Positions 9,473 to 55,492 of a DNA stretch of 64,000 bases are shown here, in pieces; within the stretch, counting starts at the first letter, position 1, and every line of letters starts with the position of its first letter. The stretch is from Methanosphaera sp. ISO3-F5. GTDB taxonomy: Archaea > Methanobacteriota > Methanobacteria > Methanobacteriales > Methanobacteriaceae. The stretch lies in NCBI RefSeq assembly GCF_034480035.2, contig NZ_CP118753.2:62001-126000 (forward strand). The letters run 5' to 3'. A program made the position numbers and the translations under genes. Under the pieces are notes generated by a model. It did not search any database, was not told the origin of the DNA, and saw only the letters and a program-made list of their open reading frames with translations.

Positions 9473-10058
9473 GAGTACTTGACAAAATTATTTCTGATAG
9501 AAAAAAAAGTATTACTCTCAAAGGAATAATTCTCTTTTTTATCTTATAAAAATAATATGATTGTCTTTGTTCAAATCAAACTAACAAATATTTTACAAAA
9601 ATAATTTATGATTTAATCATAATTTTTTTTTGAGTAATTTATTTTAAGAGGGTTTGATTTTACTTGGAGCGTACTGTATTGGTAATGTGCTACTTTTTTT
9701 ACATTTAAATGCTAATCCTGGTTTTTTAGAAATTTCCCGTCCATTATAAATGGAGTCTCTTCAGTTGTAACAACTGTTTCCATAATTATTAACACCCAGA
9801 TTAATACCCATAACCTTATCTTTATCCCAACTGACTGGTTCTTTTTCTGCTTGATAGGTGAAATTTGCCTTAAACATCCTACCATTATCTATAGGTATAA
9901 ATTTCACTTGAATAATCTTTTTATCTCTTATATCTTCTGGAATTGTTGATAACTACTACAAAAAATTATTAAATAATTATTAAAATAAACAAAAAAAATA
10001 TTAAATAAAAAAAATAGTATTACAAAAAGACAAAAAAAGATATTTTTATCAAGTACTC
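9473..10058 (-). mobile_element. Degenerate tnpB insertion element bounded by imperfect inverted repeats
   Basis: A 17-base repeat at 9473-9489 (GAGTACTTGACAAAATT) recurs inverted at 10042-10058 with 15 of 17 matches. Inside lie a tnpB fragment on the minus strand and, at 9562-9580, a 19-base sequence (TGTCTTTGTTCAAATCAAA) that recurs exactly at 18155-18173 beyond the 3' end of the intact tnpB. A short A-run with GTATTAC sits inside each end of both elements. The element is therefore a shrunken relative of the one at 18068-19793. Confidence 0.62.
9650..9943 (-). pseudogene. tnpB fragment with frameshifts
   Basis: Read on the minus strand from 9943, the translation IPEDIRDKKIIQV...GRMFKANFTYQ matches residues about 169-199 of the intact TnpB at 18201-19526 and continues into MGINLGVNN. 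The equivalent of the RuvC-I catalytic Asp is Asn here. A frameshift follows (the frame reads to a TGA, while a neighbouring frame resumes with VVTTEETPF and FLKNQ), then another before a short VAHYQ segment. N- and C-terminal thirds are absent. It cannot encode a working nuclease. Confidence 0.75.
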
Positions 10059-18200: not shown

Positions 18201-19526
18201 TTATTTTTGAAAATAGTCTTGTATTTTTTTGATTTTCCCTGGGGCAGTCCGTGCCCACTTATACAGTCGTTCCTTGGGGAAGTTCTGCTTACTTTTACGA
18301 ATGATATTACATGCTGCATTGATATCTGCATTTATTAATATTCCTGTGCTTGTTTTATAGAGTCCTCTTTTTATTCGTTTTCCTTTAAATTTATATTCCT
18401 CTTCTTCTTCGTCTGTTTTGTAGGTTGGTAATATGTCGTTGTCTAGGAAACTGCTTTTGCTTGTGTAGGATTCTTCGGTAATAATTAGTTTGATGTCGTA
18501 TTTTTGGCATTGCGTTTCTAGTTTGTTTATGAATTTTTTGAAAGCAATTTGTGTGAATATTTGATTTTGTTTTTTTCCCATATCTGTTTCGTATTTGAAG
18601 TTTTTGTTGTATCCGAGTATTATGGTTCCTATGTCTTGTTTTTTGCATGTTTCTATTATGAATTTGGTTGTATGATCTAGGAAGTTGTTTTGTATTGCTT
18701 TAAATTTGGTGTTTATTTTTTGTATTCGTTTGGATGTTTTTAGTCCCTGTTTGTTTAGTATTGATTGATATTGTGCTATTTTTTTGCATTTGAAGGCTAT
18801 TTGATTTTTTAAAAATCGCCCGCCCACAAGATATGGGGTCCCTTCACTTGTAACAATACTTGCAAAATTATTAACACCCAAATCAATACCCATCATCTTA
18901 CTTTCATCTAAACCTAGAGACTCTTTTTCCATTTGATATGTGAAATTGGCTTTAAACATTTGTCCATTCTTTAATGGTATAATTTCTACTTGTATAATCT
19001 TTTTATCACGTATATTTTCCGGAATTCTAATACGTGGTCTGCAATCTTTGGATTTTAACTCTTTTTTATATTCTCTGCTTAAGGGTAATTCAATGTAACC
19101 CTGGGCTAATTTTTTCTTGGAAGAAGTTATTGACTCCCGCGGTATTATAATATTATGTAAACTGTCATCTCTCCGTTTAGGTTTATTTAATGGTCGTTTA
19201 TATTCATTATCGATGCTTTTATTTGTTAATGCAACATAAGAATTAAAAGATTCAACATGCTTTTTAATAACATTATTTGCTATATGAGCTTGAATAAATG
19301 AATAATCTTTACTGAATTCAGTTCTAACTTTAGTGATTATTGATTTGAAATTCAACTGTTTAAAATGTTTATCATCAGCACATTTATCTAATTTAGTAGT
19401 TTTTATAGCACAATTTCGTAAATCATTTAATTTCAATGAAATATCCACTAAAACATTGAATTGTTTCTTAGAAAGACCTCTAATAAGAGTACTTTGAGTT
19501 AAATATATACAATTTTCATCTATCAT
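18201..19526 (-). CDS. tnpB: TnpB RNA-guided nuclease/IS accessory protein
   Basis: This 441-residue TnpB has a RuvC-like fold. Catalytic positions are visible at Asp215 (GIDLGVNN), Glu351/352 (ITEESYTSKSSF) and Asp401 (NADINAACNI). The usual CxxC...CxxC zinc ribbon between RuvC-II and RuvC-III is missing. In its place is FLDNDILPTYKTDEEEEEY...KRIKRGLYKTSTG, a pattern I know from a zinc-less TnpB branch. It may be an active RNA-guided DNA nuclease. No ribosome-binding site is obvious before the ATG. The 3' half of the coding strand is strikingly A/C-rich. It interrupts the glycan locus. Confidence 0.9.
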   Translation of the reverse strand: MIDENCIYLTQSTLIRGLSKKQFNVLVDISLKLNDLRNCAIKTTKLDKCADDKHFKQLNFKSIITKVRTEFSKDYSFIQAHIANNVIKKHVESFNSYVALTNKSIDNEYKRPLNKPKRRDDSLHNIIIPRESITSSKKKLAQGYIELPLSREYKKELKSKDCRPRIRIPENIRDKKIIQVEIIPLKNGQMFKANFTYQMEKESLGLDESKMMGIDLGVNNFASIVTSEGTPYLVGGRFLKNQIAFKCKKIAQYQSILNKQGLKTSKRIQKINTKFKAIQNNFLDHTTKFIIETCKKQDIGTIILGYNKNFKYETDMGKKQNQIFTQIAFKKFINKLETQCQKYDIKLIITEESYTSKSSFLDNDILPTYKTDEEEEEYKFKGKRIKRGLYKTSTGILINADINAACNIIRKSKQNFPKERLYKWARTAPGKIKKIQDYFQK

Positions 19527-19820
19527 AATAATTAATACTGCTTATTTCACTCCATTAACTTTAAAAAACGAAAATCAAGAAAAGAATTTCATAAATAACA
19601 ATTCTATGACTCGATAATATAAATTATAGAATAAAAGCTATATAAGTTTAATCCAAGAGCAGCTGGTAAGTAATCAAGGGGGTCTTGGTAAGTAATATTT
19701 AACAATATTATATATACATAAGTAACAATCATACCAAAAAAAAGTTTCATCCACATAAAAAAGTATTACAAAAACGAATTTATGCCAACACTCAAATCTA
19801 AAAAAAAGATGGGAGAATTG

Positions 19821-53511: not shown

Positions 53512-54069
53512 TTAATCTCCTAATTTAAATTCAGCAATATTCTTATAAATTGGACCATCACTTGTTAATTTACTTGATTTAAGACATATCTTTTTAACTT
53601 CCATTTTGCCATGATACCGTTTTTTCAAGAGTTTCAATGCACTACTTAATTCTTCCTTATCTTCGATCTTTTTAACTCTTCCAATAGTAATATGAGGGAC
53701 ATACTCTTTTTCTTTCCTAAAACCTAATTTATTAAATTCATTATCTAAATCTCTGATCAGGTTAGATGTAACTTTATTATCTTTAATTCCGGTCCAAATA
53801 ACTCTTGGCCTATAAATATTAGGAAACGCTCCTAAATTCACAACTTTAAGAGAATATTGGTCATACTTAACAATTATTTTATTAATTGCTTTTTTAATAT
53901 CATCTAACTGGTCTTCATTTATTTCACCAAAAAATTTCAGAGTTAAATGAATATTTTCTGTTTCAACATATTTAATTTTTCCAGCATCTTTTTCTTGAAT
54001 AATATGTTGCGTTTCATTAATTTTATTTTTAATATAATCCTCTATTTCTATTGCTAAAAAAGTACGCAT
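53512..54069 (-). CDS. thpR: RNA 2',3'-cyclic phosphodiesterase
   Basis: This 185-residue protein of the LigT/2H family has both HxTx signatures: IHLTLKFFGEI near residues 42-52 and HITIGRVKKI near 126-135. It hydrolyses 2',3'-cyclic phosphodiester ends or ligates 2'-5' bonds in RNA processing. The start MRTFLAIEIE follows GAGGGT. It lies at the upstream edge of an operon with ubiX; a structured intergenic region precedes it. Confidence 0.92.
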   Translation of the reverse strand: MRTFLAIEIEDYIKNKINETQHIIQEKDAGKIKYVETENIHLTLKFFGEINEDQLDDIKKAINKIIVKYDQYSLKVVNLGAFPNIYRPRVIWTGIKDNKVTSNLIRDLDNEFNKLGFRKEKEYVPHITIGRVKKIEDKEELSSALKLLKKRYHGKMEVKKICLKSSKLTSDGPIYKNIAEFKLGD

Positions 54070-54142
54070 AACAAACCCTCAAATATAAAAATTGATTAAA
54101 AAAGAAAAATAAAGTATTTTTTTTATAGTAAAATACAATGTA

Positions 54143-54267
54143 GGTTAATTGAACCTCTCCATCTTGTAGAAGCTGGAGATTCTTGGGTTGTAAGTTCTAA
54201 CGAACTTAAGTTTACCAAGCTATCCCCCATGTCCCGTGGGTTCTAATATATGTTCCCCTTTTTTTTT
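54143..54267 (+). ncRNA. Candidate structured RNA: branched fold and T-run
   Basis: On the plus strand the sequence folds into a branched shape. The closing pair GAACC (54151-54155)/GGTTC (54239-54243) encloses a hairpin CTCCA...TGGAG (54157-54161/54174-54178), then a long hairpin CTTGG...CCAAG (54182-54186/54215-54219) with inner AAGTTC/GAACTT (54192-54197/54202-54207) on a TAAC loop. A weaker CCCA/TGGG pair (54226-54229/54237-54240) competes with the closing stem. Nine T follow at 54259-54267, and a TATA-like TTTATAG lies about 25 bases upstream. The opposite strand also resembles the right end of tnpB elements (GAATCTCC...GGAGAGG), so it may instead be an insertion-element remnant or guide RNA on the minus strand. 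Confidence 0.5.
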
Positions 54268-54412
54268 AATATATTAATTTTTTTTCACAAAAAATTATTA
54301 TTATTATTATTCTTAAGAAGTTTTTTCAGTATTTAACACATTTGCATCATACTTGGAAACACTCTCAAGTTACATCCTCAACCCTGTAAAGGTATTCCTT
54401 TTTAGGATAAAA
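54268..54412. other. Rest of the 343-base gap between aroB' and thpR
   Basis: This part holds an ATT-repeat tract near 54294-54311, no coding frame, and a hairpin at 54383-54406 (CCT...AGG and AAAGG/CCTTT around a TATT loop, with two-base internal loops on each side). It sits seven bases beyond the dehydroquinate synthase stop on the minus strand. The hairpin could terminate that operon or be a second element end. Bases 54340-54385 contain no clear motif. Confidence 0.4.
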
Positions 54413-55492
54413 TTATTTTTCAATAATTTGTTCTTCAATTGCCATTCCAAAGTGTCTAGCACCATCGGTGAAATAAGCTAGTATCTTATCGCCTACCTTA
54501 ATATCAGCTACAGATATTGGTTCACCTTTATCAGATACTAAACGAATAGTTTCAGCATTTTGAACTAAAGTTCTGATTTTTTTACCTTCATGTTCAGCTT
54601 CAATCATCATTAACGGTCTTCTTTCTATTTTAGAACGACCAATTATTGCAGTTTTAGCTTCACCTTTACTGTTTATGGTAATTACTTCATCTCCTGCTTC
54701 AAGTTCTGATAAATATCTTGTCTTGTTTCCAGGAGTCATTACATATGCATGTACTGCACCAGCATTTACTCTAAATGGTCTTGATGCAACATATTCACTT
54801 TCTAAGGATTCACTATGAACCATAAATAATCCACTAGCAAATGAACCTATAAGCATTCCTTCCCCAACTTCCATTATTGAACAAGTATCAACACAAACTC
54901 TATCTCCAAGACCTACACTTTCAACTTTTGTAATAGTAGCTTCTTTAAGTTCATATATTTCTTTAGAAGATTTTTCTATTAATTCACCTAATTTTCTTAT
55001 TTCATTTCCATCATTTGATGAGAGAAGAACACCATCTGATCCATGTTCCATTGTTTCAAGTGCTAATTTTGCCTCTTCATAAGTTGGAACATCGACCATG
55101 ATTTTAGAGTTACGTTCTTGAAGACTTGCAATAATATTTTCTAATGGAATTACTTTCCAATTTTTTCCTTTTAATATAACATAATCTGCTACGGTTCCAA
55201 GTTTTGAAACTAGTAATTCATCTTCCTTATTATTAATTTCGATGTATGCAGCTACTTCTTTTCCTTTTTCTTGTGCTTTTTTCACATCAGCTACTGTTAT
55301 TTTTTCATTAAGGCCTAATAATATTATATCAGAATCTTCTTTATCAGAAACTATTTTAACATTCCCTAATTCTTTTATGCTATCTGAATTATCAGAATCT
55401 AAAATGTATTCTATTCCTGATTCTAAAGCACTTACTATTGCATCTTTGCGGTCATTCCATGTTCCAGTAGGTCTTATCCATGCAAATTTCAT
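54413..55492 (-). CDS. aroB': 3-Dehydroquinate synthase II
   Basis: This 359-residue archaeal enzyme of the alternative route to dehydroquinate converts the ADH synthase product by NAD-dependent oxidative deamination and cyclisation. [19 protein letters not shown] is the typical start, with [20 protein letters not shown] (about 195-214) and [20 protein letters not shown] further on. It lies 12 bases downstream of the ADH synthase gene in one operon. AAGGAAG serves as ribosome-binding site. The two genes together supply dehydroquinate for aromatic amino acid synthesis. Confidence 0.95.

Follow-up and report, generated by a model that had tools for sequence, protein, structure and literature searches.

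Palindrome-associated transposable elements (PATEs) derived from IS605 elements are already known (PMC3119063, PMC7290912), examples being a ~271-nt IS605 ends-only sequence in Halanaerobium hydrogeniformans (PMC7290912) and the PATEs of Haloquadratum (PMC3119063). In ISDra2, TnpA excises the element and then inserts it 3' of a target motif, and the role proposed for TnpB, together with an RNA from the right end and with the flank as guide, is to cut the donor joint once it has been emptied (PMC8612924). Guide RNAs derived from tnpB and located near host genes have also been described for nuclease-dead TnpB regulators (TldR-type guide RNAs, PMC13418256).

The 64,000-nt stretch of Methanosphaera sp. 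ISO3-F5 DNA analyzed here (the window) includes, between aroB' and thpR, a structure that, judging from comparison with homologous sequences, is the right end and omega-RNA (TnpB guide RNA) scaffold of an IS200/IS605 element, read on the minus strand. We are highly confident that an ends-only IS200/IS605 relic with an orphan omega-RNA scaffold is the best explanation of this locus. Like PATEs, the window element has two palindromic IS605-type ends only, with no transposase gene and no target duplication, and at 258 bp it is similar in size. It differs from them in its host (Methanosphaera), in its decayed left hairpin, and in being represented in its own genome (G000) by one ends-only and one decayed copy rather than by a large family. 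Compared with ISDra2, the window element is without tnpB and tnpA, and its candidate target-adjacent motif (TAM) is TTTAT rather than TTGAT; as in ISDra2, however, the right end terminates in GGTTCAA, with the flank in the place of the guide (PMC8612924). With TldR-type guide RNAs it shares a tnpB-derived guide RNA near host genes, but no partner gene adjoins it, and the sole exact match of the guide is its own insertion site.

The insertion between aroB' and thpR

We sought copies of the right end in 20 Methanosphaera genomes (the own genome and 19 others) and found many, dispersed across these genomes. Every aligned copy starts at the base equivalent to 54149 (TTGAACC...) and is preceded by unrelated sequence, so this base is the element boundary. 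Many draft contigs break just inside the repeat, as happens at high-copy repeats. The conserved part is ~96 nt long; beyond it, several copies enter the 3' end of an opposite-strand tnpB, which makes the minus strand of the window the sense strand of the structure. An earlier note, made from the window sequence alone, had remarked that, on the other strand, the sequence looks like the hairpin-rich right end found in tnpB elements, and homologous copies indeed lie directly 3' of tnpB: the sequence is homologous to the right end of tnpB-carrying elements and has a fixed boundary. The same locus is carried by a Methanosphaera metagenome assembly (L076).

The opposite end was counted as a left end with a near-terminal palindrome, its hairpin being partly deleted in the window copy and giving one aligned block only (local score 26; none of 2000 dinucleotide shuffles exceeded 15). 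TTTAT abuts it, and the same motif stands directly before the left end in L045, L046, L050, L055, L071, and L099, with L149 consistent. Given this decayed left end beside TTTAT, we classify the element as an ends-only derivative of 258 bp (Table 1).

Comparison of the aroB'-thpR gap among relatives, a check suggested in the earlier note, revealed shorter gaps (28-171 nt, vs. 343 nt here) and a site lacking the insertion. In the clearest relative, the junction ATACAATGGTAGGTAAGTGATAAATTA corresponds to the flanks seen in the window, ...ATACAATGTAGGTTAA and ATAAAATTA..., joined directly with the 258 bp missing, a match that represents between-species homology and not the exact pre-insertion allele. 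The insertion lies 3' of a short fixed motif, and the comparison with relatives shows no target duplication. Neither transposase nor tnpB coding sequence is present between the ends: ORFs of 50 aa or more are absent from 54149-54406, and tblastn found no tnpB remnant there. Because there is no such remnant, internal deletion of a full copy at this site is only one possible route to the present form, the other being transposition of an already short copy.

Further tnpB-less derivatives with the same right end occur in G017 (L046, L051) and G007 (L045, L050, L055, L071). Where both ends can be read, these are ~216-453 bp long, and their interiors differ. Several short forms have spread in relatives.

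Table 1. Features of the aroB'-thpR locus (window positions)
Feature	Position	Strand	Evidence or remark
Ends-only IS200/IS605-type element, without tnpA and tnpB, 258 bp	54149..54406	-	Common right boundary, left-end match, enlarged aroB'-thpR gap
Right end = omega-RNA scaffold (by homology)	54149..54244	-	Covariance model R1, 107 bits; homologues directly downstream of tnpB
Helix 1, closing GAAC/GTTC, 54240-54243 with 54151-54154	54151..54243	-	98.6% of cells paired (sequence-only alignment)
Helix 2 hairpin, 54235-54239 with 54227-54231	54227..54239	-	93-94% of cells paired (both alignments)
Helix 3, 54215-54219 with 54182-54186	within 54182..54219	-	94.7% of cells paired (model-aligned copies)
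Helix 4, 54202-54208 with 54191-54197	within 54182..54219	-	90.7% of cells paired (model-aligned copies)
Helix 5, terminal hairpin, 54170-54179 with 54156-54165	54156..54179	-	91.2% of cells paired (model-aligned copies)
Flank, would-be ~16-nt guide, TTAACCTACATTGTAT	54133..54148	-	Sits 3' of ...GGTTCAA, as in ISDra2 (PMC8612924)
Left end, hairpin partly lost, CCTAAAAAGGAATACCTTTACAGGGTTGAGGATG	54373..54406	-	Alignment with complete copies
TTTAT, candidate target-adjacent motif (TAM)	54407..54411	-	Precedes left end in related copies
A9/T9 run, in tnpB-right-end spacer	54259..54267	-	ATATGTTTCTTTTTAAT at this place in related copies
thpR (LigT-type 2'-5' RNA ligase / phosphoesterase)	53512-54069	-	Neighbor gene
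aroB' (3-dehydroquinate synthase II, DHQ synthase II)	54413-55492	-	Neighbor gene

Fold and covariation of the scaffold

Read on the plus strand, 54143-54267 has a folding energy of -31.7 kcal/mol (z -2.75), which was matched by two of 200 shuffles and by only one of 319 sampled 125-nt segments of the 64-kb stretch. The description that had drawn attention to this sequence, of several stems nested in a closing pair, is borne out, in that the stems lie where they had been placed and the fold is beyond chance. Taken by itself, the scaffold on the minus strand has a modest thermodynamic stability (z -1.85; equaled in 10 of 200 shuffles), so folding energy leaves the question undecided and it is covariation that decides.

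Two alignments of the right end were used, one made from sequence only (MAFFT, 18 copies) and one of 34 copies fitted with covariance model R1; the second leans towards the model, whereas the first does not. In L056/L059-like copies, MAFFT put part of helix 4 in the wrong place, an error that depresses the pair count of this alignment and that the model-fitted one puts right. In the sequence-only alignment 88.9% of cells are paired, as opposed to 33-55% with the partners slid; for the model-aligned copies the corresponding values are 92.3% and 30-53%. Double changes occur at 26 of the 31 pairs of the 34 model-aligned copies (6-13 pairs with partners slid), and the covariation score of these copies is 0.489 (at most 0.131 for slid partners). 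All five helices are backed by covariation. Within the model-aligned set, double changes affect 5/5 pairs of helix 2, 10/12 pairs of helices 3 and 4, and 10/10 pairs of helix 5. Compensatory changes, which the earlier note had named as a check on the 54182-54219 stem, are therefore present, that stem being helices 3 and 4. The window copy has one C-A mismatch in helix 2 and one G-A mismatch in helix 5.

Thus, a scaffold fold with compensatory changes terminates at the transposon boundary, as is the case for an omega-RNA, and its helices follow an ISDra2-like order: closing GAA/UUC, a stem 2-like helix around a 7-bp stem 3a-like helix, and a terminal hairpin (PMC10097598). The closing GAAC/GTTC, helix 3, helix 4, and terminal hairpin resemble the ISDra2 pseudoknot, stem 2, stem 3a, and stem 4, respectively (PMC10097598), the matching being by position from the 3' end and by the description in that paper and not by alignment. 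Helix 2, a local hairpin, occupies the space between the closing strand and helix 3; in ISDra2 this place is taken by part of stem 1. Searches of the window and its relatives against Rfam, with gathering and relaxed thresholds, gave no credible match (the gathering score was not reached).

Partner genes in relatives and in the own genome

In L056, the same right end lies 63 nt downstream of the gene for an intact 384-aa TnpB. This protein (domains OrfB_IS605, TNB, HTH) is a clear homologue of the solved ISDra2 TnpB (E 8e-54). In a sister genus belonging to the same taxonomic family, tnpB abuts or overlaps the RNA in L136, L138, L141, L142, and L146. L149, also from the sister genus, is a complete element with left hairpin, 134-aa Y1 TnpA, 430-aa TnpB, and an RNA ending in GTTCAA, so the Y1 (HUH) TnpA by which IS200/IS605 elements are recognized is found in an autonomous relative. 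In L099, a single element combines the left and right ends of the window element with a degraded tnpB. A search for a partner TnpB on viral contigs found none. The earlier suggestion of an orphan guide RNA remaining after loss of tnpB gains support, on comparative grounds, from these tnpB-linked homologues, from the left end, and from the uninserted relatives.

The own genome consists of two contigs (2.51 and 0.17 Mb), in which model R1 has two matches only, the window copy and one decayed copy. This second right end (L005 2482-2577, own-genome coordinates C1:1894981-1895076) is fused to an N-terminal tnpB fragment corresponding to aa 26-174 of the L056 protein and faces, in convergent orientation, an open TnpB gene from a different family. 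There are 23 TnpB hits in the own genome, all in two other families with unrelated right ends, most of which end CTACAGAGCC or CAAGTCTC; a resident TnpB was thus rejected as the partner. No Y1 transposase was detected in the own genome.

Among the 20 Methanosphaera genomes, one has a partial Y1 transposase. A serine recombinase (resolvase) was considered as mobilizer and set aside (present in 1 of the 20 genomes searched, the own genome not among them). The own genome has two tnpB-only element families with roughly a dozen copies each. The window itself contains a complete copy of a 446-447-aa TnpB-like family at 18204-19541 (minus strand; 96% identical to L024) and a diverged fragment of it at 9679-9943 (minus strand). 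The usual CxxC zinc finger seems to be missing from this family, which has about a dozen copies in the genome, most with the end CAAGTCTC.

Proposed history, rival readings, and significance

We propose that, in an ancestor of this Methanosphaera species, an IS200/IS605-type element entered the aroB'-thpR gap 3' of TTTAT and that it survives as the 258-bp ends-only (PATE-like) copy. By analogy, the ancestral element would have operated in the manner of ISDra2 and used TTTAT as target motif. As DNA, the end hairpins would be single-stranded cutting sites for a Y1 TnpA; as minus-strand RNA, the right end would be the omega-RNA scaffold, with flanking DNA supplying the 3' guide. TnpB would recut the emptied donor site, helping to keep the element in place. 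Any RNA from the window copy would be aroB' read-through. The copy in this gut methanogen is most likely inert now because it has no matching TnpB and no detected TnpA, its helices 2 and 5 have mismatches, and its left hairpin is damaged.

It could be argued that expression of the orphan scaffold continues and that a TnpB-like protein loads it in trans as a stand-alone guide RNA, given that the scaffold is near consensus by its covariance score, is co-directional with aroB' and thpR, and sits in a genome with many TnpB genes. We consider this very unlikely, because those TnpBs are of families with other right ends, R1 yields just one other, decayed copy, two helices have mismatches, and the only exact match of the guide is the flank of the element. 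The exact 13-mer of the would-be guide was found at its own locus only in a genome search, and guide targeting elsewhere in the genome was rejected for want of a second exact match. Alternatively, the inserted end may have been retained to serve its neighbors, e.g., by providing thpR with a structured leader or aroB' with a 3' end. It is indeed located between two co-directional genes and on their sense strand, and another genome of the same species has 161 nt of the sequence unchanged; however, relatives manage without the insert, and thpR is just as well conserved (100%) between these two genomes, so no special selection on the insert is visible. This, too, we regard as very improbable, and even allowing for either outcome (use in trans of the orphan omega-RNA by a resident noncognate TnpB, or recruitment as a structured thpR leader), the chance appears small.

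Least credible, to the point of being negligible, is the possibility, also entertained in the earlier note, of an independent structured RNA encoded on the plus strand that has a TATA box and a T-run terminator of its own and no tie to a transposon. The plus-strand fold is good (see above), and the nine T residues and TATA-like box to which that note pointed do exist, but the box is outside the element, in older flanking DNA, and the T9 is the A-run of the spacer, not conserved (T4-T5 in related copies). Both kinds of motif are frequent in the window, with one TTTAWA-type box per ~189 nt and 34 runs of at least 8 T or A. Moreover, copies in relatives, if read this way, run opposite to the tnpB sense strand, and the conservation pattern is that of a tnpB right end, with the fold kept in the tnpB sense. 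A plus-strand RNA gene was thus rejected in view of homology and motif frequency.

On the preferred reading, that of an ends-only relic, the result for the aroB'-thpR locus itself is ordinary, and it illustrates that what looks like a "mystery structured RNA" in AT-rich intergenic DNA can turn out to be the end of a transposon, viewed from the wrong strand. The analysis provides a covariance-supported omega-RNA family of Methanosphaera and a sister genus that lies outside Rfam coverage and comes with a likely target motif and, in a relative, an intact partner TnpB.
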